From Hygrocybe punicea (lineage: Eukaryota > Basidiomycota > Agaricomycetes > Agaricales > Hygrophoraceae), in the NCBI GenBank assembly GCA_963556145.1, contig OY744470.1, forward strand, positions 5,997,400 through 6,061,399: a stretch of 64,000 nt of DNA. The letters are read 5' to 3'. Below the pieces are notes generated by a model, which saw only the letters and a program-made list of their open reading frames with translations, was not told the DNA's origin and made no database searches. A program made the position numbers and the translations under genes. Of the stretch, positions 5,742 through 49,228 are shown piece by piece. Each line of letters opens with the position of its first letter. Position 1 is the stretch's first letter.

Positions 5742-5975
5742 TTCATTTTGTCCTTTGTCTTCCTTTCAACGTCATTGTTTCTTCATTCGGACATCCTTGT
5801 ATTTTCTTATTCTTGTTCTCTTTTTGTCCCTCCTTCTGGAACAATCCAGACCGACCATGGACATATCCCACGTGACCTTGTTGTACCCAAATAGTCTCCT
5901 TGCCGATGGACGTCACCGACATTGTCTTTTCCCTTCGATATCTTGTTTACGCTATCCCACGACAAACCGATCACA

Positions 5976-22129: not shown

Positions 22130-23460
22130 GGACCAACATGAGCCCACATGGCAGCAAGAGCTGGATTCTGGTCAACCCAATCCTGCAGCGAGAGCTAGGC
22201 CAGGGTCAACCCAATTCTGCAGCAAGAGCTGAGCATGGCAACCCAGTGCTGGAGCAATAGCCAGGCCGTGGTGAACCCAATCCTGCTGATTGGGTGGGTC
22301 CAGGATCAACCCAACACTACAGAACGGGCTGGACCCCAGTCAACCTACCCTGCAGCAATAGCTGGACCCTGGTCAACCCAGTGCTGCAGCAAGAGCTGGG
22401 ACCAGGTCAACCCAATGCTGCAGTAATTGCTGGACCTGGGTCAACCAAGTGCTGCAGCAATAGCTGGACCCGGTCAACCCAAGCCCTGCAGGAAGTGCTG
22501 GACCTGGGTCAACCCAGTGCTGCAGCAAGAGCTGGGACCAGGTCAACCTACCCTGCAGCAAGTGCTGGGCCAGGGTCAACCAAATGCTGCAGCAATAGCT
22601 GGACCCTGGTCAACCCAAGCCCTGCAGCAAGTGCTGGACCCTGGTCAACCCAGTGCTGCAGCAATAGCTGGACCCTGGTCAACCTACCCTGCAGCAAGTG
22701 CTGGGCCAGGGTCAACCAAATGCTGCAGCAATAGCTGGACCCCGGTCAACCCAAGCCCTGCAGGAAGTGCTGGACCCGGGTCAACCCAGTGCTGCAGCAA
22801 GAGCTGGGACCAGGTCAACCCAATGCCACAGTAATTGCTGGACCTGGGTCAACCAAGTGCTGCATCAATAGCTGGACCCTGGTCAACCCAAGCCCTGCAG
22901 GAGGTGCTGGACCTGGGTCAACCCAGTGCTGCAGCAAGAGCTGGGACCAGGTCAACCCAATGCTCCAGCAATAGCTGGCCCTGGGTTGACCCAGTGCTGC
23001 AGCAAAAGCTGGCCCTGGGTCCACCCGGTGCAGTAGTAAGAGCTGGACCTGGGTTGACCCGATGCTGCAACAAGAGCTGGACCTGGGTTGACCCAATCCT
23101 GCAGCAAGAGCTGGGGCCAGGTCAACCCAGCAATTGCTGGACCCCAGTCACCCCCTCCAGCATGTGCTGGGCCCTGGTCAACCCAATGCCGCAGCAACAG
23201 CTGGGTCCAGGTCAACCCCAGTGTGCAGCAAGAACTGGTCTAGGGTCAACCCAGTGCTGCAGCAATAACTGAAGCCAGGTAAACCCACATGGCTTGAACA
23301 GCTGGACCTGGGTCAACCCATCCATCCTGGAATAGCTGCCCTGGGTTAACCTACCCCATGGCAGAGCTGACACCAGGTTGACCCACCCAGGCGCCCTTGA
23401 CCAGCAAGATCTGTACCTGGGTCAACCTACCACACCACATTTCCCCAGCAAGAGCTGTCT
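22130..23460. repeat. 34-35-bp minisatellite, right foldback arm
   Basis: Inverted counterpart of 18960-20400 with very high identity. Differences are mostly single bases and a few gained or lost units, so the two arms were recently homogenised or recently formed. Confidence 0.85.
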
Positions 23461-28300: not shown

Positions 28301-28523
28301 GAGTGATGTAGGAGAGAAGTGTAGGCAAACCAGGTTCCTCATTCAATTTCCGGTTTAGGCTAAATGCTTTCTCGATCTTCGCATCGAGTAGCTTGTGATC
28401 GTCATCGGTGAAGCCATCGCGCTCCTGCGATACCTTTCTAAGGGCAGGAGTGGTGGAAGGTTCGACGGGGGCATGTACATCGCCAACAGACAAGCGTGAA
28501 AAGTCGTTGGATATCGCGTCCAT
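25303..28523 (-). CDS. P-loop NTPase of the fungal Crinkler-associated type
   Basis: Multi-exon gene starting at ATG 28523 (MDAISNDFSRLS). An early LLWPDAPS segment follows a short intron. Walker A (QSSGYGKSR) lies near 27800 and leads into FTIPFNLRP. Then come PPADDTIRNCL, a helical region, a 48-bp intron, Walker B (YFDEAH near 27190), a FLSTN sensor-like strand and RFGRPL. The last exon (26812-25303) joins as RPLFWTMIQAAG. The C-terminal 300 residues form a domain ending in a Ser/Lys linker and an acidic tail. I recognise this as the large agaricomycete ATPase family linked with CRN effectors. One exon junction near 27975 could not be phased, so a small defect is possible. Nucleic-acid or effector-related activity is inferred only. 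Confidence 0.65.
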
Positions 28524-28585
28524 GATAGTTGATGCTAGTGCCACGTGATCTTGGGCAAGACGAAGGATTTGAAAATTTGTACGAA

Positions 28586-28620
28586 GGGTTTTCCTCATCG
28601 GGAAAACCCTTCATATGGCG
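28586..28620. repeat. Hairpin GAAGGGTTTTCC / GGAAAACCCTTC
   Basis: Inverted repeat with a 5-6-nt loop in the upstream region of the P-loop gene. Related motifs occur at 47364-47400, 49198-49225 and 50800-50834. Confidence 0.7.
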
Positions 28621-30048: not shown

Positions 30049-32864
30049 TTATGCTTTCTCTCGCTTCAAATATTTGTCCGCCATGCCTAGCATCCAGATA
30101 GGGAATGTCAATCTGGGGGAAGGCCACCATGAAAATCTTGAATGCATAAACACTACCGGGAACACAATGCGTACCTGTACAGAGGGTAAGGAAGCACGCC
30201 CGTCCGGATACCAATGCCAGTCCCTGCTTCTGGAGCCCACGAGCCATCCTGCGTAATGTGTCAATTATGTCCAACGGCTCAACAGGAATTATGTACACAC
30301 CGGAAGCTGCGAGTCCATCACTTTCTTGACCGCACGCTCTACGGGATTCACGTCCGGATATTGCGCAAGCATGAGGGCCATTGCTGCCCACGACGTTTGC
30401 GCCATGCTCGTCTTCTCGGCATGGACGTACTTTCCCGTAAAGCAAGACCGGAAGCTCTCGCCCCAACCGCCATCTTCCTTCTGGTACTCCAGCAGATAAT
30501 GACACGCCCTCCTTACACGGGCGCTGTTGGCGTAGTCTTCGCCAAACGTTGTTAGGCCTAGTAACGCGAACCAAGTTCCGTAGGTGAAACAGATTCCCCA
30601 CGAGCCGATCCAACCACCTTCGGGATATTGCGAATTGTGTAGGTATTGAATGGCCCGCTTGATCGAGGTACTAGAGTAAGCAGGCCAACTTTTAAGTAAC
30701 GTGTATTACGAAAAGAACATAAACACACTCAATCTCTTGTCTTCGGTAGTCGTACCGCTTTTTGAACTCAGCGAGGCCAGTAATCACCGATGTTGTACAC
30801 TCGGGGTAGGAATATTCGATCATGATATTGTCTGAAGCAAAGACTCAGATGCAGAAGGAAAAGTAACCAGTTCGTGACAGCGCACCGTAAATCTCCGCAG
30901 GATTGAACATCTCCAGCAGCTTGTTCCCTCTGTTGCACTCATAACTCGGTAGACCGCCATCAGAAGCTTGCATACCCAGAAGCAAATCAACGCTGTCGAA
31001 TAATCGGCGATCAGAGATACGGTCCTCTTCCCTGAAAGGCAACGTCACCACTACCCAAAGGATATAGCAACAACGGACGTACTTGAGACGGGATTGTAGA
31101 ATAAGCACGGCCTTAAGGGCCTCTCCAGTACAATCCGACACGACATAGCCGTTCTCCCGTCTGGTACTAAAAGGCCTGTAGTGAAGACGTGAGCCTTGAA
31201 ACCGAGCATGAAAAGAAATGGGCATCACGACGCACCAGCCACCTTTCGTCGGATGCCGGTAGTCCATCGGATAGTGGATGGTGTTTTCGGTCATTTGTTC
31301 CCTGTCAAGGAATCCGAGCAGCCTGTGCACAGCATCTTGGTTGCTGGGCAGCTCCGAGAGACCGGACTCGATCAGGGCGAACGAGATGAAAGCAGTATCC
31401 CAAACCTGGCACCCATTGGTCGCGGTGAACTGCATTCCGTCGGGGCCCATCCAGATAAATTCCTTGAGGGTAACAAGATGGCGGCGTACAGCCTCGCTCT
31501 CAATGCCTTCGGCGTGTGCGCGACAGAGCATCTGCAGGAGCTTTGAGACGGAGATGAGGTCGAAGTAGTCGGTGTTCTCGTCCTCCTTGACGATCAAGTC
31601 GTATGCCTTGTTGAGTGCACGTCTTGTGAGTGGCGGGAAGGGGCAAGATTCGATGGTGCAGCTGACGAGGAAGTAGATCGCATCGAGGAAGTAAGTGTGC
31701 GGAACAAGGTTGTCGACGTCTGCTATGTGATTTTTCTGCGAGGGCCAATGTATTTTGTCATATTGCTGTGTGAAGAGTTCCTGCAATGTTTGCTAAGAAA
31801 GTGAAGTATTTGCCAACAAGAATGTCAAACTTACCTCTCTCAGCGAGAGGATGAGCTCGTTCTCTGGAATCTGAGAACGGACGCGATAGAGGTAGCTCAT
31901 GGGGATGTAGAACGCGCGCATGAAAATCCACCATTTATTGGGATGTATCGGTGTCCACTCAGGTAAGAGCCTGCGTACAAAAGAATTTCAGTACCAGTAA
32001 TCTACGGAAAGCAGAGACTAACAATATTTCAGGAGGGATGGGGTTACTACCGGCCCAGTCATAGAGGTTAAGCAGAGACAACCAAAACTTGCCCCATGCC
32101 GGACAGCCAATGGCGCCACCTGTTGGACCGATGAAATTAAGGAAAAGTAAAATTGAGAAGACATGTAAGCCCTCACCAAGGCGATGGAGCGTGTTTCTGG
32201 CCTTCACCATTGCCGGGTGGTCGGGGACAAGACCGAGCATGCGCAATGCGATATAGGCAACCGACGTGCTGAAGACGGTAGTTTTATGCTCAAGATGACT
32301 TGAAAGACGTTTGAGCGTTAGAATTGTACATACGTATTACCATGTAAAGAAAGGAATGAAACTCACAGGCCCCAACCACCATCCACAGGATCGGCACGGT
32401 TCAATAGATAGCGGATCATCTCGACACCTTCCTCCGGCAGCGGCTTGGTACCACAGAGGTATAGACTGATGACGTACATGGGGACAAGATACATTTGCCC
32501 TCCGCATACGCCATCCCAGTGACCGTCAGGGGCCTGAATAGCTTTCATAAAATTGAAGCCATTGACGGCGGCCTCTAGAGGCGTAGCAGCTGTGTTATGC
32601 TCTACGCCAGTCTGAAGAGAGGTGAAAAAGCCTTCAAGCATTCAAAAGGCTACCACGAACCACCGGTAGACCGAAGATGTGTTTTTCGACATTTGATTGC
32701 GGCCATGCAATGCGCTCCTCATCCGAGTGCAAATAAATCCATTCTTTCTGTGTGTTTTGCCCAAAACGCAGTCTCCAGTGTTCATGGCGAGTGAAAGGTG
32801 TGATTCCGTCAAGCGAAACAGCAGTGGCATTTTGAACAATACTGTTGGGTTGGACCCGGGACAT
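30049..32864 (-). CDS. Oxidosqualene cyclase (lanosterol synthase-like triterpene synthase)
   Basis: About 12 exons joined by 40-60-bp introns give about 750 residues, the usual size for fungal oxidosqualene cyclases. The N-terminal part has [14 protein letters not shown] and [20 protein letters not shown] is the first QW-like repeat. The catalytic acid motif is DCTGE at 31121-31135 (usually DCTAE) after a GGWPFSTR segment interrupted by an intron that happens to be open. DGGLPSYE, then [20 protein letters not shown] and [10 protein letters not shown] follow. Stop TAA is at 30049-30051. The enzyme is a monotopic ER/lipid-droplet protein that protonates 2,3-oxidosqualene and cyclises it. The last 50 residues diverge from the family. 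Neighbouring P450, acyltransferase and glycosyltransferase genes point to specialised triterpenoid synthesis rather than sterols. Confidence 0.9.
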
Positions 32865-33472
32865 GTTTGAAAAACAGGATCACTGTAGCGGTTCGGCATG
32901 AGGCTGGAGATATATGTTTTTGAATCAGTTAGATTCGGAGCCTTGAGGATAGCCATATGTTGATAGTATTATCAACTTGGTCATCGTGAGCACCGATGAA
33001 ACCGGCATTCAGCCTGATCAAAGGGTCATTGTGAGCGCCATCAAGAAAGAGTTAGCATCCGCGGCACCAATGAGCCTCGTCATGGTTTCACCAACATACG
33101 GAGATAAGTATTATTGGCTTAGGCTGGCGCCCGGTGCGGCTTGGTAGGAACGGTGGGTTGAGGGCCGATTTCCTGTGCCATCATGGCGTCTGTGCGGTCG
33201 GAATTCGATTGACAGCGCGGTTAGTGGTGCTAGACTCGTTGCCGCGTTGGTCCCACTAGCAATCAACCGGGTGTTTCATGATAGTTTCCGATAGTGTATC
33301 GTGGGGGCGGCGATTATTCAAGTAATTATGAGTAGTAATCACCGGCAAGATGTGGCTCAGCTATGGCTGGATCGCAAATGGAAATAAAGTATTCAAAACT
33401 CGTCTACAAACAAACACTCGATGTAGGGGGCTATTATCTAGAGCTAACGATTCTTTCTATCTTAGTCAACAT
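32865..33472. promoter_or_regulatory. Promoter region of the cyclase gene
   Basis: 608 bp upstream of the cyclase ATG with no exon of its own. It also holds the 3' flank of the next P450 gene, which is read in the same direction. Confidence 0.4.
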
Positions 33473-35766
33473 TCAATCGTCATTGACCGCTACAGCGAGG
33501 GGGAGGCAGATTCCCCTGTCTGGCTGCCCTTCGATCTTGGGCAGCATGAACACGGATGTTTCTCTTCTGACCTTTCTCGTGTCCTCAGTCTGCGAAAATT
33601 TAAACTTGCTTGCCATCTCAAAGGTGAACACCTGCAACACAACGATGCTACGCGAAGCGCACGGGATGAGGAGGATGCTGGAGGGCACGAAGCCGAACAC
33701 TTACGCCATTCTCCAGCCCGTACAACCCTTTGGACCGCCAAGGAACGACGCCCTATATTTTCAAGCAAAGCCAATCAGTCAATAAAAGTGTCAATAGTCA
33801 GTATGAAAAGTATGAAAGCACAAATTTGCATGCATGCCAAATCCAGTCGTCTTGGGTTTGGTCTCGTCATGCAGCCACCTATCTGGATTGAACAGATGAG
33901 CGTCCTCGCCCCATACCGACTTGAGTCTGCAAGCGAAAGAAACCCATAATCAGGGGGGGGCCGAATGATAGCGCCAAGGCCTCGAACACACCTGTTGTAC
34001 CCCGAGAGCGAGGAGAAGATAGTCTGTCCTTTGGGGATAGGCAGCTTGTCGACAACCTGACCTGTCGTGAGGGTAATAGGTTGCCACAAGGGTAGGACGG
34101 TGTCGACTTTGGGTGACTGGACGACCATAAACGCGACTGGGTGGAAGCGGAGAGTTTCCTAAGGCGGGACAGTCAAGTCAGCGAGGATATAATAATAAAT
34201 TAGTTTCGGTTACTTTGACAATTGCGTTCAAGAACGGTAGTGAATCAAGATTCGTCGTCTGTGCTTGCTTGCCACGCACTTCATCTTTGAGACGCTGCTG
34301 ATGCTCTGGATGTCGGGCGAGCTCGTAGAGCAACCAGTGCATGGTGTGTGCAAGGGTACTGTTAGCAGCAAATAAGAAGGTCCTAGAAGGGATGGAATTA
34401 AAAGACGACGGAAATGATACGGTAAACGATTTACTAACCTGACTTGCGCCAATAGCTCATCGTCCCTGAGGCGGGATTTAGCATCTTCAGATCTGTTCGC
34501 CTTGATGATCAAAGACATGGTATCTTTATGTTGACGGCCCTCCATAAGCGCCGCCGTCTTTTCATGCACGAGACGACCCGCAAAAGACGTGCAAAGATCA
34601 CGAGCGTAGCGCACACGCCGGATCTTCTCGCTCCAGCTGTAGTCCAGAAGGAGCTGGTATACCCAGGACGGAACGAGTTTGCTGATAGACATGGATAGAA
34701 CGCCGCCTTCGACCATGCTGCCCATTGTTTCGACCCTGTGTATATGTTTGATTGTTAAGATGATAGGGGAACAAATATTAGATGGACTTGCATGATATCT
34801 TCAGAGTTCTGGCATGCCCTCATGAGCGGGTCGTCCTTACCATCAAGCGCTCCGAATTCATAATCCAGAACAGCTGCGTGCAGCAGGCCGATTAGGAGTT
34901 ACGGTGGTGGGGGGAAAAAAATCAGGGTGCAAACGCACCAACGCCCATGCAGTCAAGGGTATACTTGACATTCCATTCGGTCACATCAATGACAGTGCTA
35001 GTACCAGAGTCTGCTGCAATCAAGTCGGCCCATTTTTCAGCGAGCTTAAGAAGGGAAAATAGCAGAAGCGAGTGAGATAAACTAAGTGGAGACGACGATG
35101 ACATAAAAGAGAGGGTTTTACTTTGGCAGCGAAGCTGGAGAACTTTGGGATTTGAGCCTTGATATCACCAACGGCGAAGCCAGGTTGGATTACGCGTTGT
35201 TGTCGAACATGTTGCTGGCCTGGACAGATGATATCAAGAGCCAGAACTAAGTAGACACGTCGCGGTCGCGTACCCTGTGCAGTGGCAATACCTTGACCTG
35301 TCATAAGATCAAGCACAACATGTCGAAGGGAGTTTGGGCCGAAATCGTTGAACGCGGTCTGATGCATGTGGCGAAGGGCTTTAGGATCAGCCACAAGCAA
35401 TATATCGCCCAGCTGTAGAAAAAATGATGGTGTGAGTTTGAGTAAAACAGGTACGGGGGGACTGGCTTACGCCGAGCGTGAGCGGCACGGGGACTCGGAT
35501 GATGCTGCCATACTCCTCTAGCCAAGGAAAGTCGGCTTCGCCCACGGGCATTCGCATAAAGTCCAGCGCAGGACCTGGATGGTTGCGAAGACATCGATTG
35601 TAAAAAACGAAGCCAGCAAAATGACAAAGTGGAATTATCGCTCACCATACCAAGTTGTCGCAGCTGGACCGCGAACTTTAGAGACGAGGTCATTTGTGGA
35701 ACGTCGATAGAGATGGAAAGCAAAGAGGGCCAACAGAGTTACGGATAGTGAAAGCAAGAGCAACAT
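33473..35766 (-). CDS. Cytochrome P450 (first of the cluster)
   Basis: Starts MLLLLSLSVTLLALFAF (ER membrane anchor) at 35766 and ends TGA at 33473. About 12 exons. Features in order: VRGP proline hinge, a C-helix region (QQHVRQQRVIQPGF), I-helix TFLFAANSTLAHT around 34370, ExxR as ETLR around 34150, a PERW-like FNPDRW near 33890, and the heme loop FLGGPKGCTGWR at 33705-33752, whose Cys ligates iron. Family length and order are complete. The I-helix lacks the usual acid before Thr (NST for xDT). It is a monooxygenase working with NADPH-P450 reductase, probably on the triterpene backbone. It is divergent from the next P450 and shares its 459-bp promoter. Confidence 0.88.
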
Positions 35767-36225
35767 TGAGCGATGCGAGGGGCAGTACGTCTAGCGAGCC
35801 TGAATGAAGTAGTAGTAATCATACTGTATATCCCGTATACGGCTGTATCCCGTACAGCTGCCGCTTGATTACTAGATGAACATGCGGTAACAACAAAAGT
35901 GACCGCACCGCACCGTTGACCCTGAAAACCTCTGAGTTTTAGCCTTGCAAATTGCGCAACGCCGATGATGATGGATTGATGGGGCCCTGTGGGCGGTAGG
36001 CGGCAAAAAACATCACGGCATGGTACCCAGCTGCAAACCTAGTTACCCATTACCCACCCTCATTTACCGCAACATTTCTGACATTTGTCAGATACCTCCG
36101 AATGGGTCGCACTCTTTCTCACCTCATCGCGAATAAGGCGGGGTACAGCCATGACGAAACCGTATCAAACGCGGCCGTCGTTCGCCTTTTTCGTTCAAGT
36201 TCATTCTCGCCCAGTACTAGTCAAC
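35767..36225. promoter_or_regulatory. Divergent promoter between two P450 genes
   Basis: 459 bp between the start codons of a minus- and a plus-strand P450. It contains the palindrome CCGTATACGG at 35833-35842, an inverted CCG/CGG pair of the kind bound by fungal Zn2Cys6 regulators. No cluster-specific regulator gene is visible in the window. Confidence 0.45.
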
Positions 36226-38324
36226 ATGCTCGAGCTCTTGGCACCAACGATACTTGTCGCTACCGCAGGCTTTTGGTTGCTGCAAAAGATATCCTCACTA
36301 CGCCCCAATAACTTCTCTCATGTCCCAACCATTGGTCCGAGACTCTCGTTCTTCAACGGCATCAAGTTTCTGTTGTATCCCCAAGAAATGTGTATGGAAG
36401 GCTTCAAAAAGGTTTGTCTAGTTTGGTTGTTGTCTTTCCCCAGGCTTGCTTGACTTTTTCTTTCTTTTTTTTTTCCAGCATGGTGGTGCGCCGTTTCGCG
36501 TTCGTCAACAGACAGGATGGACAGTCGTGATTAGCGATCCGCAAATGGCCGACGAGGTCCTGAACGAATCAGATGAGCTCATGCAACGTAAGGAGCCTAT
36601 ACGAGAAGTATGTTGTGGCCCGTGTGTTCGTCAATAACAACCAGGCATTGAAACCTTATTCCCCCAGGTTCTTCAGATTCCCTTCACTGTCGGTCCCCAA
36701 ATAGACACTGATCAATACCACAACGACGTCGTCAAAGGTGGACTGCAACGTCACCTTGCAGATTGCGCTCCCGACGTCCTGGATGAAGTTGCGGCTACGT
36801 GTGAAGACGAATTGCCCAACACGAAATCTGGTCAGTCGTCACTTCCGAGCTTTCCATCCCGACCCGAATTTGAGATCGTATTTTATTGGTCCCCAAGAAT
36901 GGAACATGGTCACCGGATATCATGTAGCGACCACTATCATATCTCGAGCGAGTAACCGTTTGTTCATCGGTTTACCGATTTGTGAGAACTCGTGCGCGTC
37001 TTGCCACTCAGTGTTACTGACATCGAAATTTCGATCCAGGTCGGAACACAGATTACATCAAGTTCACCATTAAGATCACTTTTGACATCTTCAACACCGC
37101 CAATATCATCAACTTTTTTCCACAACCGATTCAACCGTAAGCAGTGTAGTTTTCAAAAAATGTTTGAAGTGCTGGCGGTTTAGTGTTGTTGTCACAAGAA
37201 TTGTGGCGCCGTACATCGCTCGGCGCAAAACGACTGCGAAGCAAGCCGCAAGCTATTTGGAAGATATTGTTCAAAAACGGATAGACAGCCTTGATCGATA
37301 TGGCCGTGACTACGAGGAGAAGCCGGTATGCTCCGTCAAAGGAGAACATTTACAAAAAAAACCCTGATTCGGCACTTTTCTGAACTTTGTACAGAACGAT
37401 CTTTTGTCGTGGCTTCTTGACGAGGGGAACAAAGAGCGGCGAGAAATGCCAAACCTTCTCAGTCGGCTGGTCTTTGTCAATTTTGCCTCTGTAATGTCGA
37501 CGGCAATGGTAAGCAATGTTTTTTTTTTGTCTTCTTCTGCTGAGCGTTATCTTTGACTTCGTTCCGATCTATTGTAGACGTTGCTGCGTTCAATGTATGA
37601 CCTTGTTCGACATGCAGAGTTTGTGCCCGAGCTGCGAGAAGAAATCGAGCAGGTGATCGACGCTGAAGGCTTCACGCCTCCAGCGCTGGACAAGATGTAC
37701 AAGTTGGATAGCTTTGTGAGGGAGTCGCAGAGATTGACTCCTCTGGCCGCTCGTGCGTACATACCGTGCGTGATATCAATGACTGACTAATTTTTGTGTT
37801 TTTCTTTCTTTCAAGATACGATGATGCGGCGAGTTCGCAGAGACTTCAAGTTTTCCAATGGTTTTAGCGTTCCGGCAGGCACACTTGTCACGCTGAACCA
37901 AGTGGCGCTGAATCTAGATGAGGTTGATTGTTTTTAAATCTGCTCAAGTCCTTGGGTTGACTTTGGGGGGGTGTTTTCAAGAAAATCTGGCCGGTACCGT
38001 CACGGTTTGATGGCTTCCGACATATGGATGAAGACCCAAGAAACAGGCTTATAAGCACTTCGAACAACTTGCTGTTCGGTCATGGTCGACATGTCTGGTA
38101 GGCTATGTCTGCGCCGTCATCATGGAATTGTTCCAAACAACCCTTCCTTTCTTTGCAGCGCCGGTCGTTCTCTCGCCGTGCAAGAGCTCAAAGCAGCCAT
38201 GGCTTATCTGATCGTGAACTACGACTTTAAGGCATGGAAAGCGAGTGATATTGATGGGGACGCTCTTCCATTTTTCAAGCTCATCAATTGGAAGGTCTAC
38301 GTTCGGAAGCGCGCCGATGCCTAG
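36226..38324 (+). CDS. Cytochrome P450 (second of the cluster)
   Basis: Eleven exons from ATG 36226 (MLELLAPTILVATAGFWLL, membrane anchor) to TAG 38322-38324. The chain runs HVPTIGP hinge, WLLDEGNKERRE, I-helix NFASVMSTAMT, a helix with LRSMYDLVRHAEF, ExxR as ESQR, a KIWPVPSRFDGFRH (PERF-like) stretch, and the heme loop FGHGRHVCAGR split by an intron near 38097. Exon layout and sequence closely parallel the P450 at 40.3-42.5 kb, so the two are tandem paralogues. Like its relatives it has Ser-Thr instead of Asp/Glu-Thr in the I-helix. It is a likely ER-anchored oxidase of the triterpenoid pathway. Confidence 0.88.
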
Positions 38325-38896
38325 ATGACGTCGATATGTATAGCGTGGAAATTTGATTTATGAGCACCCTGCGGCACAGCCAAACCATGATGTATATACC
38401 GTCATCATGATAGATATAACGATCACCTGTAGACGAAAATATGAATGTATTGTATGCCGTCATTCCGGAGCCAGCTGCCGTGTCCCGAATCTCCTAGATA
38501 CCGTACATAAACTGTTCCGTGTTCTTCGCACACCCTGTCGAAAGTAAGGCGGGTTTCCGTTGGCGGAGGACGTTGCTTGAATATAAGACACCGGAATCCA
38601 AATCCCCGTTAGGCAGGTCGTCGAGCGAACATTATGATCGGTGATCTGACTGATTATGTCACGAATCTGAGATGTGTTTCGATCAAACTACATCAGTCAT
38701 ACAAACTGCATCAGTCAGACTCGTCGGCCCACAGAACCCCCAAGGGGAAAACTCCTACATGGAAATGGGCGCAGCGTTTCAAATTTCGAAAGTAGTACCG
38801 CCACTGCGAGACACTAGAACACTCCCAGTGCGAAAGTGAGTCCGAATTCGAAGTCACTGCAATCATCAAATTCAACTTCATTCAATCACCTTGCTC
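38325..38896. promoter_or_regulatory. Intergenic region upstream of the acyltransferase gene
   Basis: 572 bp with no exon. The last 150 bp contain C/T-rich tracts leading into the ATG at 38897, as in other genes here. Confidence 0.35.
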
Positions 38897-40276
38897 ATGG
38901 ACTGGTTGGCTGCACCAGCTAGCACAAATGGCCGCTCACCCGCGTCTGTGGCCCTCACAAACTTGCTCGTACCAAATATCTTCCTGGCTCTCTGCTTGGC
39001 TTGCTATTCTGGACCTTATGTTTCGCTGAGGCTCTTTCTATGGGCCCTATTTGTACTCGCATCCATTCCTGCTCTCGTCCACTTCCCCGGGGATGCGAAC
39101 AGAGAGTACGTGATGGGTGTCGTCGTCGGCAGCGGCATCGTATACGCCCTCCATCTACTCCTCGTCAACCCGATAGCAATCTACCGCTTTCACACGGATA
39201 AAATTCACCCTCGTTCAATGCCGTTCTTCAAGAGGATCTACTGGGCCCTGTCTGTCATCGTCTCCTCTAGAGGTATTGGTTGGAACTACGAGGTACGTTT
39301 CAACCATTCTGGCGACAAAACAAATCATTTTTTCACATTATGTAGGTGCCTAACGTACCCCCCAAACCGAACCTTACTCGCGGGAAATTTGTGATCTGGA
39401 GTAGCTTTCGTGGCTTCGTATCGTTTCTGCTGCTGGACATTGCCCAGACCTACATACACACAAATCCTCTGCTCTCTCTCCCACCCCAACCTGGCAACCC
39501 ATCTGTTGCTTCTCAGACGATGGTGCACTTCTGCCTTTCCACATTTTGCTGGGTTTTTGGCAACGTATGCATGGTCAGCATGCAGTATTTCTTTTGTGCC
39601 GCTGTCCTTGTCGCCCTCGGTCTCTCAGACCCTCACCTCTGGCCTCCTTTGTACGGAAGTCCTCTCGAAGCCTACACCGTTAGACGTCTATGGAGGTGTG
39701 TTCGTTCGCCGTGTGCTTAATCCACCAACGGAAGCTGAATCGACTTCTGGGCAGTCGAACTTGGCAGTTGATGATGCGACGCGTCAGTGCGAATCATTCT
39801 TCTTTCAGACCCTCATGACTGAATGAGCCTCCATCCAGCAACACTCAGGACTTGGAAAAATGGCCGCTAGAGCGTTGGGACTTAAACAAGGAACATTCGC
39901 GTCTCGGTACACCCAACTTTACATCGCCTTTGCGCTCTCAGGTTTCACACATGCCTTGGGCGACTTGAAAATGGCGCCACATCTCTTACCTGATGGTCCG
40001 CGGTCGCTGTTGGTCCGCGGTGGATTTCCATTCTTCGTCATGCAGGCTGTAGCGATCACGGTCGAGGACGCGGCTATCGCACTGTTCAATCGGGTCTTTG
40101 CCTCGCTGAAGTGGTCTCCACCCATAGCATTTTCACGACTTGTCGGATATGCATGGACGCTGACCTGGTTCCTCGCGTCCTGGGGCTGGTATTGCGAGTT
40201 CAACTTTCAAGCTGGAATATTCTACTCCGACGCTCTCCCTGTCTTTTCTCCCATTCGATCACTTCTATTACCACTC
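38897..40276 (+). CDS. Wax-synthase-like MBOAT acyltransferase, reads into the next P450
   Basis: Starts MDWLAAPAST. At least five hydrophobic segments are visible. Exon 1 ends GIGWNYE, and exon 2 runs VPNVPPKP to VRRLWS. A short exon then gives RTWQLMMRR, and the next begins QHSGLGK. RLWSRTWQ matches the wax-synthase FWxRxWH block (final His replaced by Gln), and LSGFTHALGD holds the MBOAT-type histidine. Related MBOAT_2 enzymes transfer acetyl or longer acyl groups to terpenoid hydroxyls in the ER membrane. After the usual C-terminal region (around 40240) there is no stop codon. The frame continues into the membrane anchor of the downstream P450. The end given is therefore a domain boundary, not a stop. 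Confidence 0.8.
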
Positions 40277-42535
40277 CTTGTGTCGAATGCATCGATTATC
40301 CGACTCAGCACGAAAGCACGCCCCGAAGCAGTCATTGTTTCAATTGGGACTTTTGCACTTTGGCGAGTTGGGGCTAGCCTTTTGAAACGGCACAAGGCAG
40401 GTGGTTTTATTGTATCTGTATATCGTTGGCCTACATTTCCTTCCAGTATAGTCACGTCCCGATCGTGGGACCGCGTATTGGGTTCCTCAATTCTATCAAG
40501 TCCATGATGTACGGTTCCGATATGTGTATAGAAGGCTTCAACAAGGTAATAATATAACAAAACACATCACGAGTCGGTCTGCTGACGATCTGAGTTATGC
40601 ACGCAGTATGGCCTGGCGCCGTGTCGCTATCGTATTACCACCGGATGGGTGACGCTCATCAGCGATCCTGCCATGGCAGCGGAGTTATTGAAGGGTTCGG
40701 ACGAGCTCATGCAGCCCTACGAGGTGAACGACGAGGTACATTCGATTATCCATCAGTTGAATTATGAGCAAATTTTCACCCTCACATTACACACACACAA
40801 CTACCATCCAGGTCCTACAAGTCCGTCATACGCTTGGCGACCATTTCGTCAAGGATCAATATCAAAATGAAGTCACCAGGATAGGGATGAACCGTCATTT
40901 CAGAGAAATCAGTGTTGATGTGTTGGAAGAGCTCGTAGCGACATTTAACGATGAGTTGCAGAGCGTCAATGGAACTGGCAAGTTTTCTCTCTCCCCTCAC
41001 TCAACCCCTGACATTGACCATCGTGCCAGCAGAATGGACTGACATTACAATTTACGACGTGGTGAAGAAAGTTTCTTCAAGATCCAGTAATCGACTATTC
41101 GTCGGCTTACCCCTTTGTATATATGCATTTTGGGTTTTGAATGGAAGTTCCTACTGTTTGCTAACGAGACCTCGCAGGTCGAGATCCTCGCTACATCGAG
41201 TTTACCATACGTAACAGTTTCGACATCTTCCAATCGGCCACCGCGATTAACCTCTTCCCGACTTGGCTTCAGCCGTTCGTGTTTACAATGGGATAATACG
41301 CGAGATTCTTCTAACATTTCTCTCTCAATTACAGACTACTAGCACCTCTCCTCGCGAAACGTCAGGAAAATACGCGTGAAGGCGCGGATTTCTGGTTGGG
41401 CATGGTTCAGGAGCGATTGCGCAGCATGGATGTCCACGGAAAAGACTATCCCGGAAAACCCGTACGTTGCGGACCTTACACTGCTTCTGTTAGATTTCAT
41501 ATAACCGATTCGCACAGAATGACGCTCTTTCGTGGCTTCTGGACGAGACCAACGAACAGCGACGGAAAACGCCGGACATCATCAGCCGTCTTCTTTTCCT
41601 TAACTTTGCAGGGATACTCTCGACGGGCTTGGTATGTCGGTTATATACTGCTGTGCGTGTGTGTCTATAGGTGACTGACAACACTTCTTTTCTTTTTTTT
41701 TTCAAGACTATCATGCGGGTTATCTATGATCTCCTTCGCCATCCTGAGTATCTCCCAGCCCTCCGTGAGGAAGTAGAACAAGCTATCGAAGCTCACGGGT
41801 TCACCGCGGATGCGTTGGACGACATGTACAAGCTTGATAGTTTTGCTAGAGAGTCGGCGAGGTTGTCGCCTTTGAACACTCGTGCGTTCTTTTTTTTTAC
41901 CACACCGTATTATGCTACAAAACAACAACAACAACAACAACAACACTGCAATTAGATACCATGCTTCGTCAGGTTCGACGAGATTACACATTTTCGAACG
42001 GATTCAGCGTTCCTGCTGGTACGCGCATCGCACTCAATCAACCGGCGTTGAATCGCAGCGAGGTGCGGCCTACGTTGTCTTTTTTTTTTCCTTATTATTG
42101 TCTGGTCACACAAGCGAATGTCTTTTGCTTTTACCTCTAAATAGATTATTTGGCCCGACGATCCCTTGAGTTTCAAAGGATTCCGCCACGCGGACGCGAC
42201 GAAGCCAACAAGCAGGCTCGTCAGTACTCACAATCTTTTACTGTTCGGTCATGGACGACATACTTGGTGAGTCATCGGAAGAAGAAGAGGGGGAAAAACA
42301 CAAGCAGGGTTGTGCGCCGTTCACTGATTTGGATACACTTTTTTTTTTTGGTAGTGCTGGCCGAGCTCTCGCTGCCGAAGAGATAAAGGCGACCTTGGCA
42401 TACTTGATGACCAACTACGACTTCAAAGCCGCAAATGAGAGCGACGTGAAAGGCCCTAGATCTTTACCCATTTTTAAACTCATGGCATTGAGGCTTTCCC
42501 TCCGCAAACGTAAGCGCGTAGCCATTCCTATGTAA
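40277..42535 (+). CDS. Cytochrome P450 (third), in frame with the acyltransferase
   Basis: The membrane anchor (AVIVSIGTFALWRVGA) lacks a Met and continues the MBOAT frame. A phase-0 intron (GTATCT...CCAG) leads to YSHVPIVGPRIGF, aligning with HVPTIGPRLSF of the second P450. Then come WLLDETNEQRRK, I-helix NFAGILSTGLT, ExxR as ESAR, IIWPDDPLSFKGFRH, and the heme loop FGHGRHTCAGR split by an intron near 42266. Stop TAA is at 42533-42535. Eleven exons mirror the second P450. Either this is a bifunctional acyltransferase-P450 fusion or the start codon has been lost or moved to an unseen exon. The role is again a triterpenoid oxidase. Confidence 0.82.
41918..41946 (+). repeat. (CAA)n microsatellite in a P450 intron
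   Basis: About eight CAA units within the intron preceding the TMLRQVRRDY exon of the third P450. Confidence 0.8.
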
Positions 42536-42806
42536 ACACATGTCTTGTACTGCGTAAAGGAGAAGTGTCATTTTGTTTTTTTTTGCAGTTGTAGAAGTAA
42601 CTGATAGATAGAGATAATAGATCTTGAAATTGAATTTTTTTTTTTTCATTGATATGCTCGAAAATGGTTTCATTGTGAGGTAGGCAGGTGGTTTTCTAAT
42701 CTATCAAACTATGTAACAATGTGCTCGGGGTTGCACTGTGAGGTAGATGGGTGAATTCTAATCTATCAACATATGTAACAATGTGCTCGGGGCCCGAGTT
42801 TAGGTC
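42536..42806. repeat. Convergent intergenic region with a two-copy ~60-bp tandem repeat
   Basis: Between the 3' ends of two convergent P450 genes. A unit ending ATGTAACAATGTGCTCGGGG occurs twice (around 42676-42736 and 42737-42795). Confidence 0.6.
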
Positions 42807-44962
42807 CTACTTCTCCGCTGTCTCAGGCTTGCGCCTCCTTCTGAACTTGAGCTTCGCGTAACTGTTGGGCATAAAGAATACGCCGAGAATCAGATGCTGT
42901 GGAGGTTTCCTTCCGTCCTCGCCCTCTAGCTTAAAATCAAAGTTCAGCAAGATATATGCAAATATCAGCTTGATGAGCAAGGCGCCGTAGAAGCTAAACA
43001 CAAAAAAAGTAAGGGCCGGCCAGTCAGATTATCTCCGATAGGACCACCCCGGCCATTTGATTGGGCAAAAGGAGACGTACCGCCCGGGGCATGCATGACG
43101 ACCCAGACCCCAGATTAAGAAAGACGGGTCCGGGGTATCCATACGCCGCGGCATCGCCTCTGGATCGTCCTTGCTGAGGAAGCGGTATGGATCAAACTCT
43201 TCCGGGTTGTTGTGGAACGCTGGGGTTTCACCAGACTCAGAATGCGGTTGGTGGAAAGGTGGTGAGAAAAAAAGAAAAAAAAGGGATCCTTACCTGGGTC
43301 GTAGTGGAATCCTTGCTCGGCGGCGGACACCATAGTCCCCTCGGGGAGGTTAACGCCATTGCGGAAAGTGAACCCGCCAGGTTTTACAACCTTTCTATTC
43401 ATTGTTACTAGGGAACGTTCACACCGTCAGTGGCGAAAGCACAACAAAGAAATGTATGAAAGGGAGGGGAGAAGGATGCTTACAAACGCCCGCGCCGTGG
43501 TATCGCATATTTTCTCTCCCAAAACTCTCCATAAGCTTCATCGAGTCGAGGGATGCCTTTGACCAGCCGCTCTGTCCGATGACGCGCTCGGCTTCTTCTC
43601 GCAAAGGCTCAATGAATTCCGGCATGTTGGCTGCGAGCTGATAGAGGCCATGCGTTATGCTCTGAAAATAATAAATCAAAAAAAAGTCCGTGACTTTTTT
43701 TTCTTTTTGGAAAGAACATACCGAACCGAGGGAAGTGCTGGAGGCCACATTGGTGAGCATGATGCGCTGTGTGATACGAAACGGAGTCCTCTGTTGGGGT
43801 GGTGCTTCTTCCAAAAGCCACGTGACGAGGTCATTCTGCGCAACTGTGAGTAATTTTGCTGGTTCGGTCGTGCTAACAGAAGGTGGACGAACGGGCTTCT
43901 GATGCTTCCACTCTGGGCCCAAGTCCTCTTCCATTCGCATCCGCTTCTCGATGATTGGGGCAGTATATTTCAAAACACGACGGGTTGTGGTGGTCATGGG
44001 AGAGTAGAAATATCTGACAATTCTGTTTGGAACAATTTTTTTGTTGTTGTTGTTAGTTATAGCGTCGATGTTGAAGGATGGGCCTGCTCACGGTCGAAGG
44101 AAAGCAGGAGCATACTGGCAAATAAGACCAGAAACCACTGCACTAATGATGAATTCCTTTGCAAGGGCAAGATAATGAGGGTTGCGACCTAGAATCATAG
44201 CAGAGGCGGGGTGGTTCATATTTGCGAATAAGACAAAGACTGGAGGAACCTACAAACGGGAAGGCCCAAGAAGTAGCGGTTGTTGAGACGCATCAAGAGC
44301 TTAAATACAGTCTCTTGGGCGAAAACCGCGGTCCACTCTGTTTCCAAACGCATGTCAACGAAATTCCTCATGTCAAATTAAGACGCTCGAACTTGCCGTT
44401 GGGACCGTTTGAGGGACAGATCTCGTCAAAGAAGACGTCGAGTTCGTCGAGAAGCTCGGGAAACTTGGATTCGACGGATCGGGTGAGTCCGTGGTGGATC
44501 GCTTGGACATGAAAGTCGGCAAACTTGTGGTCTTTTGGATCCATGTCCTTGACCAATTCACTGGTGAATGCCTGTCGGAGAAATAGTTAGTCCGTGCAAG
44601 ACCTTGGCTGATGAGCTATGCGACGTTACCTCGGCAAATCCGAAGAAAAACGACAACTCGGTCTCTGGGGCACGACGAATATCGTCGAGAAGGTCTGGCG
44701 AGGCGACGACAACGTTCCAAGTGTTTGGCAGGGATATCTTGAACAACCCGCCCTTGTACTTGTTGTAGGCTTGCCTTACGATCTTGTCATTTTTTGAGAA
44801 GTGAGAGATGGCATCCCAGCACGAGCCCAAGAAGTCGGAATGGCCGATAGTGGGGATATCAGCTAGCTTGCGTGAACCGGCCCGGGTTATGAGTTCGACA
44901 GCGATATAGACGATCAGGAGGAGGAGGACGAGGGGAATGGCTGTATCCAAGAGGTCTGCCAT
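42807..44962 (-). CDS. Cytochrome P450 (fourth of the cluster)
   Basis: ATG 44962 begins MADLLDTAIPLVLLLLIVY, a membrane anchor, followed by the IPTIGHSD hinge. Exons chain through AFTSELVKDMDP, RYFLGLPVC, RPIVRYFYSPM, VTWLLEEAPPQQR, I-helix NVASSTSLGS, an ExxR as ENMR, YRFLSKDDP, and the heme loop WGLGRHACPGRFYG at about 43083-43115. It ends TAA-side at 42807 after a basic tail. One intron, between NGPN and EWTAVF, best fits a GC-AG donor (G|GCAAGT). The family is the same broad clan as the second and third P450s but clearly diverged. Convergent with the third P450 and divergent from the glycosyltransferase. Confidence 0.87.
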
Positions 44963-45458
44963 GTACACGATGGGGCGGAGAGACTTGGTGTGCTCTCAGA
45001 CTTGGGACTGAGTACTGAGGATTCCATCATAACTCGAATAATAAAGTGGTCTCTCCGATTTCGATTGCTTCTGCTGCATGGGGATATCGTCTCTCTGATG
45101 ACGGTGTTGCAGGAAAGCAAGATTCCGGTTCGATCGTTGGTATCCGGGCGCGTTACTAACGGTGCTGATTTGATCCGCAACCGTTTTGTTTCCGCAACAT
45201 TTGTAATTCACTGAGACCGGACATGTCTAAGCCAGAGCGCTCAAAGACCGTGACGGCGGCCATCAAGAGGTCGTAAGCTTGCTTTCTAGCTCTTACCCTT
45301 TGGGGGACTCGGATGCATCAGGTCGTTTCGTCGCCACGGGCCTGCTCTGCAGGGTCATATAATGGTCTGCTGGGGGTTTAGCTGCCAGTGTGAGTGCACT
45401 TCAGTTCTCTCTCTCCTAACACTTGCATTCTACTTTCTTCGAAAGATCGCTTTTCCAA
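44963..45458. promoter_or_regulatory. Divergent promoter, fourth P450 / glycosyltransferase
   Basis: 496 bp between opposing start codons. A TATA-like CATATAATGG lies near 45355, about 100 bp upstream of the glycosyltransferase ATG. A shared promoter suggests co-regulation. Confidence 0.45.
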
Positions 45459-47227
45459 ATGCCTCGTCATGTCGTTACTTTCTCCTATGGGTTGTGGGGA
45501 CACCTCCGCCCCCAGATCAGCTTCGTGTCCCGACTCATCATGGCCGAGCCCGACATCCTCGTCACCATGATCTTCGACTCCAAGCTCATGGATCCAACCA
45601 GAGTGCGTGCGCAACTGGACCGTGATTTGGCAGGAGGAAGCGCAGAAAACGTCAAGTGCGCTCTCAGAGGGTCCAAGTCAGTTTGACATTGTCGTAACAC
45701 TCTACAACAGGTGCTGCACGCTCGCCGATGCTACCATGTTCGATAGTGAGAGCATCGAGGCCGAATTTACCAAGGTCTATGTCAGTCTCCTCGAGACTGC
45801 AATCATCAAGCCCGACGTGTTCCTCGGCGAGGTAAGCCGTGTCGTGAAGCCTACGTTTCGACACTTTTCATCTGAGCATCATCAACAACAGATGGGCCCA
45901 TACGACACTGGTAGCATCGTTCGCAAGTTATCCAAGGAAAAGAACCCTAAAATTGTGTTTTGGTACCCGGGCCCTCTTTCGGCTCTGTACACTTATGTCC
46001 ACCGCTGGCAAGACGACGTAGATCATCTCATGGACATTGATTTCATGGCTCTTCACACGTATGACCAGGTAATATCACCTCTCCTGCCGTTCTTCAAGTT
46101 TCTTGTTTCGCTGACAACCCTATGCTTCCAGAACAGGCACCTTCCTATCCCAGGTTTTCCTACCATCAGCGGTAACGAACTATTCCCGCAGCCGGTATAC
46201 ATTCATGCAGCTTCGTCTTTCCGCTACCTTTTTGTGGCTGAAAATATTGCTTGCCACAGATTACTCAGACACCACCTTTCGCCATCCATGTCTTGACTGC
46301 CAAGAGCACCCAGATGTGGATCGAGTCTAACGCAATTCTAGGCGGAACGTCCGAGGTCCTCGAGCCTGAACAGGCAGCACATCTACGCTCGGCTCTGAAG
46401 ACGCGTGGACGTGACCTTTTCCTGGTAGGAGACAATAACCGACCGGTAGACCTCGCCACCGTCGATCCCGCGGTCACTACATTCTTGGATGGCAAAACCC
46501 CGAAATCCGTTCTCTATGTGCGCCTTTCCTGACGGTCTGTCTATACTGATTTACAATCTATTACCCACCACCAGATCGGCTTCGGTTCAATCACTACCCA
46601 TAACACCCCTGACAAGTTCCATGCGTTCATGGATGTCGTTCTGGAGCTCGGAATACCCTTTGTAAGTTCCGCCATATTTTTACCCCCCCGTCTTGATTTG
46701 AAATCGGTCATCAATCCTGCACACAGATCTTGGCCCACGGCGACCATGCTGCTCCTCTTCCCGAGCGTTTCGCCAAGTCTGACCTGGGCCTCGTGCTCAA
46801 GTGGGCGCCGCAAGAATATATTCTCTGTCACCCCTCGACTGGCTGGTTCTTATCACACGCCGGCTTCACGTCAGTCAAGGAGAGTCTCTCCGCAGGCGTG
46901 CCTATCATCTGTTGGCCGTTGCAGTACGACCAGCCTCTGCTGGCGATCATCGTCGATCAGGTACTGGGAGCTGGGTATGAGCTCGAGGAGGTTAGGGATG
47001 GTCCTCTGGGCTTGCAACCTAGGAAGAGCAATGGCAAGGTGCCGACAGGCACCATCGAAGCTGTCCGCGAAGAAGCAAAGGAGGTACTTCACAAGGCATT
47101 CTTTGACAAATCTGAGCACGGAAAGAAGCAGGCGGCGGTGGACAAGGTCTGCAAGGAGCTCAACGCAGCTTGGGGCTCGGAGGGGTTGTCAACTGGTGAG
47201 ATGAAGCGTTTTTTGGAGTTTATTTGA
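45459..47227 (+). CDS. UDP-glycosyltransferase (GT1 family)
   Basis: Starts MPRHVVTFSYGLWGHLRPQ, the N-terminal acceptor-binding fold with the catalytic-His-like GHLRP block. About seven exons with short introns give about 500 residues. The middle contains KIVFWYPGPLS and IPGFPTISGNELFPQP. The C-terminal nucleotide-sugar domain has VLYIGFGSI rejoined across an intron, and the signature WAPQEYILCHPSTGWFLSHAGFTSVKESLSAGVP, a PSPG-like box with an HxGxxS core. It ends with a helical tail and TGA at 47227. It transfers a sugar from UDP-sugar to a small lipophilic acceptor, here probably a hydroxylated triterpenoid. Its last 130 bp and 3' flank are duplicated at 48882. Confidence 0.9.
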
Positions 47228-47869
47228 AAAGCAAAAGTAAATTGTCAAGGTACTACCACTACAAATAAGGATTAGCTGTATCCTGTCCTAAGATTCGGTG
47301 AGAACTTGAAAATTGGCTTGAGTGTCACATCACTGTTATTATTTTATAATAATGTTTGAATAAAGGGTTTTCCAAAACCCTTCATACGACCGATTTTCCC
47401 CTCAGCCCTTGAACTCAACACGGAGGAGTTCCTGCAAACGAACGCAAATACCTGCGACTCTATCCGAATGATTGACCTGAATGTTCGTATTATTCTTTAT
47501 CTTCACTGGGTGACTGCATAACAAGGGCGAGAGTGACATCATTCATTTGAATGTAGCCGTCACGACGCATGAAGGAAAGTTGAGGGTAGACTTCAAGCTC
47601 GTACTAAGCTTCATCCGACTAGCGAATAAAGGCGAAGTGCTGAGGGTTCTCTTCGAAGAGGGTAGGAGTCTTGATCCCGTTGTCATTTCGTCGTCAATAC
47701 TTCCATCTAGTTACAGGGTCCCTGAAAGTGACAAGGAGGTACTCGCCCAAATTGTTTGGATTTTGTTTTCCGGCAACTGTAATAAGTGTGACAACAGGAA
47801 TGTTTCGTTTGACAATACAGGAAGTCTCCGTGACATCTTTCTAAGCTTTCTTAGCTCCAACCTTAGCTC
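47228..47869. other. Intergenic with a perfect palindrome; no confident gene
   Basis: Contains AAGGGTTTTCCAAAACCCTT near 47365-47384 followed by CATACGACCGATTTTCC. A plus-strand frame at 47547-47888 (113 codons) shows no family features and overlaps the end of the secreted-protein gene, so it is not called. Confidence 0.5.
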
Positions 47870-48426
47870 TCAGACCTTGCGCTCATAGGCCTCTTCCATG
47901 GTGAGGAATCCTTTACCCTCGGTATCGTAAAGAGCCCACTTAGCTGCCAACTCCTTGCGTGTATTGGCAGTGGAGAATGTGTACCACTCTTGGAATGTAA
48001 GCATGCCGTCGCCGTCATTATCAGCAACGATGAACTTGCCCCTAACAAAGTAACATGAGCGACCTAGCACCACACGTAATCGGACACAACAGCTTACTGG
48101 CAATCGTTGCTCTGATCAACGTTGCTCTGATCAACGTTGCGAGAGCTTTGGTCCTTCCAGTGCAGCTTCAATGTGTGCCTGCACCCACCGTCACAGTGGC
48201 AGCAGAAGATGTTGCTACGTCGTTTTCATTGTGTTGTCAGATAATGGCCGCAATAAACTCGCATGGCGATGTACGCTTACCATGGGCCATATCCACAGCA
48301 AGGAGTGGGGTACGTGCCATCGAAGCACAATTCGGCAGATTTGCAGCAATGAGCAGCGACAGGGAGTAAGGAATAGCTCAGGAGCATGAGCATGGCAAAG
48401 ATAGACGCGAAGATACTGTGCTTCAT
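47870..48426 (-). CDS. Small secreted cysteine-rich EF-hand protein
   Basis: Three exons (48426-48281, 48214-48098, 48041-47870) give 144 residues. The first 25 residues (MKHSIFASIF...LPVAA) form a signal peptide. The mature part starts HCCKSAELC and continues PTPCCGYGPCNIFCCHCDGGCR across the first intron, a dense cysteine cluster likely paired in disulfides. The C-terminal half has a canonical EF-hand loop DNDGDGMLTFQE and a second, weaker one (DTEGKGFLTMEE). Choosing the acceptor at 48215 rather than 48179 preserves the cysteine motif. It is probably exported and calcium-binding. The function is unknown, and small secreted proteins of this look are frequent in plant- or litter-associated agaricomycetes. 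Confidence 0.8.
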
Positions 48427-48881
48427 GACGATATTAACAGTGGGGGGTGTGGGGGGTTCTGTAGAAGGAACTGAGTCGAAACCTGAAGTCATCATGGCGG
48501 ATTAAATACTCTCATAACGAGGGTGGCGGGGATTAGATCCTAATAAGCCAATTTGAACACAAGACCCCCCAACCCCCGCCCCGATCACGGTCTCCGATAA
48601 CAATCAGTTTGGATTGTTTTGCCGTTGACCCATGACCATGATTATCCCTGCAGGGTACGAGACGTATGTGAAGTGTGTGGGGCATAGTGAGGCGCTTGGC
48701 AAACGTAATTGATGTTGACATGCGGAAGGTTCCGAAATACTGTTGGACAATTCGCCGACTCCAAACCCTTGACGCTTGAACGTGGTGGTACTGGCTGGAG
48801 CCGGCCAACAGTCAGTAAGGACATGGCTGCAAGGTCAACGATGAACCTATTCTTGATGGTACAGATAATAACAATCCACAC
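48427..48881. other. Upstream region of the secreted-protein gene
   Basis: C-rich runs (around 48440 and 48562) and no exon. It lies between the secreted-protein start and the duplicated glycosyltransferase tail. Confidence 0.35.
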
Positions 48882-49228
48882 GGCATTCTTTGACAAATCT
48901 GAGCACGGAAAGAAGCAGGCGGCGGTGGACAAGGTCTGCAAGGAGCTCAACGCAGCTTGGGGCTCGGAGGGGTTGTCAACTGGTGAAATGAAGCGTTTTT
49001 TGGAGTTTATTTGAAGGGCAAAAGTAAATTGTCAAGGTACTACCACTGCAAATAAGGATTAGCTGTATCCTGTCCCAGCGAGAACTTGAAAATTGGCTGG
49101 AGTACATCACCATTATTATTTTAATGTTTGAATTTGCCCTTCTAGAGACATCACCCCTGTTCCCCACAATGTCTGACCGCCGCCGGCAACTCCGCCATAT
49201 GAAGGGACCCTTCATACGACCGACTCAG
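48882..49228 (+). pseudogene. Duplicated 3' end of the glycosyltransferase gene
   Basis: From 48882 the sequence repeats 47095 onward at offset 1787: the last about 43 codons (FFDKSEHGKKQAAVDKVCKE...), the stop, and the 3' untranslated flank up to the CTTCATACGACCGA motif. A few substitutions and a 60-80-bp unmatched insertion occur in the flank. There is no upstream coding part, so it is a non-functional fragment. The copy brackets the secreted-protein gene together with the original. Confidence 0.85.

Follow-up and report, generated by a model that had tools for sequence, protein, structure and literature searches.

Introduction

Among described gene clusters, the closest in composition to the locus reported here are the fuscoatroside (fso) and enfumafungin (efu) clusters of ascomycetes, which combine a cyclase with several cytochrome P450s, an acetyltransferase and a glycosyltransferase; fso is described as one fused cyclase-glycosyltransferase gene, three P450s, one acetyltransferase and one glucose oxidase (PMC12667498). 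We analyzed the terminal 64 kb of contig C36 (OY744470.1; 6.06 Mb) in the genome of the basidiomycete Hygrocybe punicea (92.2 Mb in 42 contigs); this 64-kb stretch is hereafter called the window. Positions 30049-47227 of the window hold a similar set of enzymes: an oxidosqualene cyclase (OSC), designated OSC1, four P450 modules (CYPA to CYPD), a wax-synthase-like O-acyltransferase (MBOAT) and a family-1 UDP-glycosyltransferase (UGT). The likeness is one of description, and the architectures differ. EfuA and FsoA are cyclase-glycosyltransferase fusions, with fernenol and isomotiol as the cyclase products (PMC12667498), whereas at this locus the UGT has a gene of its own, 12.6 kb from OSC1, and it is the MBOAT that is joined to a P450. 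We consider it probable, from the sequence features set out below, that the locus is a working cluster for a specialized, non-sterol triterpenoid glycoside-ester, and that OSC1 makes a skeleton other than lanosterol.

Other fungal systems share single features with this locus. The helvolic acid cluster likewise has a second fungal OSC, the protostadienol synthase HelA with a C-terminal motif of its own, beside P450s and an acyltransferase; the seven-gene list given for it does not include a UGT (PMC8227516), and the protostadienol-synthase motif ACPGGMR, the one feature by which the two cyclases were compared, is absent from OSC1. By description, the oxidosqualene clavarinone cyclase of Hypholoma (clavaric acid) is likewise a dedicated agaricomycete OSC for a specialized product, whereas its listed neighbors in H. 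fasciculare are mostly housekeeping-looking, with no P450, UGT or acyltransferase among those listed (PMC8181146). Among the papers listed in searches of an open-access library, none was seen to describe a basidiomycete cluster combining an OSC with a UGT.

Results

Seven catalytic modules are carried by six open genes

Gene models were obtained with an ab initio finder using a light intron penalty, followed by exon-by-exon correction against reading frames, splice sites, paralogues and relatives. An intact reading frame from start to stop codon was obtained for each of the six genes: OSC1 (30049-32864, minus strand; 12 exons, 732 aa), CYPA (33473-35766, minus; 12 exons, 536 aa), CYPB (36226-38324, plus; 11 exons, 487 aa), MBOAT-CYPC (38897-42535, plus; 15 exons, 908 aa), CYPD (42807-44962, minus; 9 exons, 532 aa) and UGT (45459-47227, plus; 7 exons, 462 aa). 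Each assignment combines a spliced model with Pfam matches, supplemented by alignment and a tree for OSC1, PDB searches for CYPA and CYPB, alignment for MBOAT-CYPC and a tree for UGT. Every Pfam score exceeded its curated cut-off (OSC, 185 and 165 bits; the four P450s, 112-174; MBOAT_2, 64; UDPGT, 55, the last match spanning UGT residues 262-373 only).

A preliminary description of this DNA had reported seven contiguous catalytic units within 17 kb. All seven modules are present where it placed them, but the number of genes is six, as by sequence the MBOAT and the third P450 occupy one open reading frame. Its claim that no unrelated gene lies between them is compatible with the model coordinates, in which neighboring genes are 271-608 bp apart, leaving little room for a further gene. 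The two divergent pairs that it noted are also present, with intergenic stretches of 459 bp between CYPA and CYPB (35767-36225) and 496 bp between CYPD and UGT (44963-45458). Contiguous backbone and tailoring genes, all of them open, give the locus the form of a fungal biosynthetic gene cluster.

The six genes contain 60 introns, 56 of them GT-AG and 4 GC-AG (one in CYPA, two in MBOAT-CYPC and one in CYPD); the number of GC-AG introns seems high. An intron directly before an EW pair occupies the same place in CYPB, where it is GT-AG, and in CYPC and CYPD, where it is GC-AG.

OSC1 is separate from the sterol-type cyclase of the genome

Two OSC loci in the whole genome exceed the Pfam cut-offs, OSC1 and OSC2 (contig C35), and a protein search of the genome revealed a third, broken locus on contig C41. 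The preliminary description had conceded that a sole cyclase would have to be the sterol enzyme; a second, sterol-type OSC is present, and the phylogeny that it called for places OSC1 apart from it. The two proteins are 51.2% identical. In a search of public proteins (120 matches listed of 1251), OSC2 shares 74.9-79.9% identity with its 15 best matches among the 120 listed. Among the same listed matches, the top match of OSC1 is a partial Bondarzewia mesenterica protein (P0001, 75.8% over 530 aa) and the next, from Jaapia, is 56.8% identical; none of the 120 is a Mucidula OSC.

Relationships were examined in quick trees with SH-aLRT support only. In the main tree (59 rows), OSC1 groups with P0001 (support 98), and the two are joined by Cyathus striatus P0064 (100). 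These three sit in a second-OSC clade of 11 rows (96) that also contains Heliocybe, Ramaria, Pleurotus pulmonarius, Jaapia and some Mycena rows. Outside the OSC1 clade, OSC2 and Bondarzewia's other OSC (P0070) are placed among rows that include the Wolfiporia enzyme, which we take to be a lanosterol synthase; OSC2 belongs to a 17-row clade (97) whose names are presumably all those of Agaricales. Thus OSC2 groups with agaricomycete rows of lanosterol-synthase type and OSC1 does not. The branch to Cyathus P0064 is long (2.36), and its removal left the placement of OSC1 with P0001 unchanged (10 rows, 98). The stem of OSC1 and P0001 is itself long (1.46), as would be expected following a change of function. 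A one-residue insertion is filled in OSC1, P0001 and P0064 and in no other of the 122 aligned rows. The presence of a separate OSC2, the 51.2% identity and the tree position led us to reject the identification of OSC1 as the sterol cyclase of the genome.

The late-cation site of OSC1 is altered

Active-site residues were counted in 118 other OSCs, mostly basidiomycete by name, using human lanosterol synthase numbering. OSC1 is recognizably an OSC, with PF13249, PF13243 and the DCTxE acid motif containing D455 and C456, and it also retains C533, W387, F444, W581 and Y503. The DCTGE form of the acid motif (for DCTAE) was considered as a mark of an unusual enzyme and rejected, as it is the commonest form shown among the aligned OSCs. 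From work on the human enzyme, we take H232 and F696 to face the late (C14/C20) cation. OSC1 has neither residue of this lanosterol-synthase pair: position 232 is F (in the 118 others, H in 112, Q in 5 and F in 1) and position 696 is G (F in 116, A in 1 and a gap in 1). Four further positions depart from a strong consensus, namely 697 (I; N in 114 of 118), 521 (Y; F in 117), 98 (C; Y in 111) and 384 (C; S in 109). Bondarzewia P0001 agrees with OSC1 in having F232, Y521, C98 and C384, and ends before 696. Cyathus P0064, with A at 696, is the one further F232 enzyme in the set of 118; in this protein C533 is replaced by I and the residues around W387 are altered, W387 itself being kept, and given these changes it may make another product or none. 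In one solved OSC structure (8j5z), position 232 is occupied by Y and position 696 by F.

Published plant data appear to agree that the 232 and 696 places steer the outcome of cyclization. In a table of 22 plant OSCs, all five cycloartenol synthases read MWCHCR and all 17 amyrin and lupeol synthases have Y at the place of H232 (PMC4346913). Docking in a plant OSC put the C20 cation between Y256 and Y725 (PMC12858397); we align Y256 with 232, and Y725 probably, with less certainty, corresponds to 696. In the plant enzyme PHS, F728A and F728S largely or wholly abolished protostahopenol and gave protosta-13(17),24-dien-3beta-ol, and H259F had a moderate or weak effect only, these mutations having been picked to reflect hopenol B synthases (PMC11951148). 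That choice implies that hopenol B synthases have F at position 259 and either A or S at position 728, and if 259 and 728 map to 232 and 696, such a pair would be of the kind seen in OSC1 (F, G) and in Cyathus P0064 (F, A). Because the place of H232 is aromatic, being Y in plant amyrin and lupeol synthases and apparently F in hopenol B synthases, and OSC1 has F there, as a dammarenyl-type enzyme would have Y or F, we lean toward a chair-chair-chair (dammarenyl) route. Loss of F696 may in addition favor a tetracyclic or hopane-like end product, a leaning rather than a result.

Several observations weigh against this leaning. OSC1 keeps T381 and N382 of the protosteryl-type motif MQGTNGSQ, and its corresponding ten residues (not shown) do not match the plant dammarenyl form MQSF-G(S/C)Q. 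OSC1 shows no close kinship to plant amyrin, lupeol and hopenol B synthases; a C in this region is its sole agreement with four of the five lupeol synthases of the plant table (PMC4346913). The modest effect of H259F in PHS speaks in the same direction, and the F728A and F728S products would point to a protostane. Loss of F696 would also leave the late-cation site with one of its two aromatics.

It is accordingly possible, though on our reckoning doubtful, that OSC1 still folds its substrate chair-boat-chair via the protosteryl cation and differs in its ending (protostane, parkeol or cucurbitane type), giving a lanostane- or protostane-like glycoside akin to hebevinosides. Triterpene xylosides are known from Hebeloma (PMC10830979), and besides the retained T381/N382 and the PHS mutants, there is precedent in the protostadienol synthases, whose own C-terminal motif is 699-ACPGGMR-705 in Cordyceps farinosa (PMC8227516). 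This block would fall just after F696 in human numbering, where OSC1 is rewritten; its residues 697-703, however, read IRTGVLP, which is not an ACPGGMR-like motif. The protosteryl route is further opposed by the loss of H232, retained in 112 of the 118 other OSCs (Q in 5, F in 1) and matched by H in all five plant cycloartenol synthases (PMC4346913).

The acyltransferase is in frame with a P450

The 908-aa MBOAT-CYPC model contains PF13813 at residues 231-303 and PF00067 at residues 482-884. The MBOAT frame runs without a stop into the membrane anchor of CYPC, and the stretch from the MBOAT domain to that anchor lacks an in-frame ATG. The CYPC part and CYPB share 52.7% identity over 484 aa, with residue 7 of CYPB aligned to residue 418 of the fusion, and for this reason CYPC resembles a copy of CYPB lacking its own start. 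CYPD is about 26% identical to both. A public search using the MBOAT and the first part of CYPC as query, with 8000 candidates scored, returned seven proteins of 320-400 aa. All seven are unfused, and neither Bondarzewia nor Mucidula is represented among them. Past the last shared block, the seven continue for 0 to about 30 residues; in the fusion frame, the CYPC anchor lies about 50 bp past the same block.

On these features, the MBOAT and CYPC are rather likely to form one fused polypeptide. That they are two proteins, joined in a continuous frame by accident or assembly error, falls short of probable: the seven unfused relatives and the separate start of CYPB, the closest P450, favor it, but there is neither a stop between the parts nor an ATG from which a separate P450 could begin, and the roughly 50 bp between the last shared block and the anchor, set against relatives' tails of 0 to about 30 residues, contrasts with the 271-608 bp between other genes of the cluster. 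We know of no natural MBOAT-P450 fusion, and no literature search was aimed at one.

The histidine of the MBOAT SGxxH motif is present in all eight aligned sequences, that of the cluster included. The RTWHQ motif reads RTWQL here, and Q at that place is also found in P0154. All four P450 models have the Cys-ligand and ExxR motifs by eye, and each has an imperfect I-helix motif AGx(D/E)T, again by eye. In PDB searches CYPA and CYPB matched only distant P450s of many families (best 60 of 201 and 167 matches), and for this reason we name no CYP family or substrate for either. Kin elsewhere in the genome are distant, at 28-43% for the MBOAT and mostly 30-41% for CYPB, with exons of one locus on contig C2 at 40-61%.

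The UGT is the only intact family-1 enzyme found in the genome

PF00201 has a single place in the genome, the cluster UGT, which was also the sole intact family-1 UGT found in the 92-Mb genome by exon-by-exon searches of best candidates. A protein search added a broken copy on contig C39 as well as a 3′ fragment at 48.9 kb of the window; by similarity search, the latter is a duplicated 3′ end of the UGT gene (48877-49133, plus strand; fragment only), 90.8% identical to 47090-47361 in an alignment of 272 positions. The UGT protein has an N-terminal His and a donor-binding-like block. Among 29 public matches, those from Bondarzewia (75%; partial, 64% of the query) and Mucidula mucida (64%, full length) stand apart from the other 27, which are at most 40% identical. 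Hericium eriJ, like the cluster UGT a basidiomycete family-1 enzyme, acts in the clustered terpenoid pathway to erinacine; it is 34% identical. In a tree of 18 rows, with long branches elsewhere, the UGT, Bondarzewia and Mucidula proteins form their own group (support 100), and eriJ falls in a separate group that includes a second Bondarzewia UGT, so that Bondarzewia has one UGT in each clade.

By identity, then, Bondarzewia mesenterica has the nearest relative of OSC1, among the matches listed, and also that of the UGT (76% and 75%, in each case a partial protein). This shared closest species argues against the genes being neighbors without a common pathway, with the UGT and MBOAT, for example, detoxifying or storing another compound. 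The missing Bondarzewia relative among the seven MBOAT matches speaks for separate pathways and against our reading of the cluster; with the compact gene order, the two divergent promoter stretches and the status of the UGT as the sole intact one found, we regard separate pathways as very unlikely.

Broken copies, selection and kinship with Bondarzewia

The broken UGT copy (C39:5606555-5607433) matches window positions 45488-46400 with 80.9% DNA identity, and the broken OSC copy (C41:944943-945409) matches 30880-31361 with 73.0%. Both contain stop codons and out-of-frame gaps. Between window gene and broken copy, dN/dS is 0.28 for the UGT (210 codons) and 0.42 for the OSC (156 codons), values that would fit constraint on the window genes and a conserved coding function. 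Because dS between broken copies and window genes is 0.34 and 0.76, the OSC and UGT genes are suggested to be old in this genome. A repeat like window positions 5963-7323 occurs in both 10-kb stretches around the broken copies (96% and 84%).

The broken copies raise the alternative that the locus itself is decaying, with OSC1 crippled and no product made. The replacement of the nearly invariant aromatic F696 by G, the transposon-like genes nearby and the imperfect I-helix motifs, which also count against a working cluster, are in keeping with decay. It is nonetheless improbable: six genes are open through 60 introns, dN/dS against the broken copies is 0.28 and 0.42, and D455, C456 and C533 of OSC1, the Cys-ligand and ExxR of the P450s, the N-terminal His of the UGT and the SGxxH His of the MBOAT are all present.

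OSC1 and P0001 are 75.8% identical over 530 columns, and OSC2 and P0070 are 70.2% identical over 510 of the same columns. Because the specialized OSC is the more alike of the two, transfer between lineages is suggested. The contigs that carry the Bondarzewia OSC and UGT relatives measure 3.9 and 5.1 kb, and contamination of that assembly is an equally open alternative. Recent horizontal transfer fits the two identities, and the old broken copies weigh against it.

Surroundings of the cluster

The cluster ends about 17 kb from the end of the contig, which terminates in a 58-bp satellite (62799-64000; 20.7 copies, 100% matches); no run of at least two TTAGGG/CCCTAA units was found in the 64-kb window. 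Just past the UGT is a small draft gene with an EF-hand match (47870-48492, minus), which was kept out of the cluster. Two draft genes have P-loop-like stretches, SGYGKSR and GARASGKTT (26867-28598, minus, and 50962-52396, plus). Also around the cluster are retroelement pieces (1813-5166, minus), with RNase H above the Pfam cut-off and reverse transcriptase and protease matches below it, a hAT-family transposase in an open frame of 722 aa (11627-13795, plus) and a weak tnp2-like transposase match (18200-19048, minus). Two 34-bp tandem arrays (19129-20365 and 22151-23287) lie about 1.8 kb apart; the unit of one looks like the reverse complement of that of the other, and the arrays are possibly the ends of one mobile element.

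Discussion

The preliminary interpretation of this locus as a dedicated triterpenoid cluster is well supported by a non-sterol cyclase, six open genes, the sole intact UGT found and the Bondarzewia kin of the OSC and UGT. The saponin-like product that it proposed, in the sense of plant saponins, is possible, the prediction of glycosylation and acylation coming from the enzyme families. We infer a single pathway for all the genes, in an order of steps that is provisional. OSC1 would cyclize 2,3-oxidosqualene to a non-lanosterol skeleton, which the four P450 modules would oxidize; the MBOAT module would esterify a hydroxyl, with acetylation most likely, and the UGT would attach a sugar.

A bolder interpretation, advanced tentatively, is that OSC1, P0001 and P0064 represent a fungal OSC clade that has left the sterol fold, making dammarenyl-derived (lupane, hopane, oleanane or dammarane) products by way of independently evolved H232F and F696G/A changes. 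In that case the cluster would represent a basidiomycete route to saponins, convergent with that of plants and equipped with an acyltransferase-P450 fusion enzyme.

Triterpene glycosides are known from mushrooms, the hebevinosides being an example (PMC10830979), and the six genes described here may provide a handle on the biosynthesis of such glycosylated triterpenoids, whose chemistry is known from fruiting bodies. The OSC1 clade poses the question of whether a fungal OSC has left sterol-type cyclization through two late-cation residues. Glochidone is a lupane. Cyathus striatus is reported to contain glochidone, glochidonol, glochidiol and glochidiol diacetate (PMC8122434; the same list in PMC9103111), and if its enzyme shares the chemistry proposed for OSC1, P0064 would be a candidate gene for glochidone-type triterpenes.

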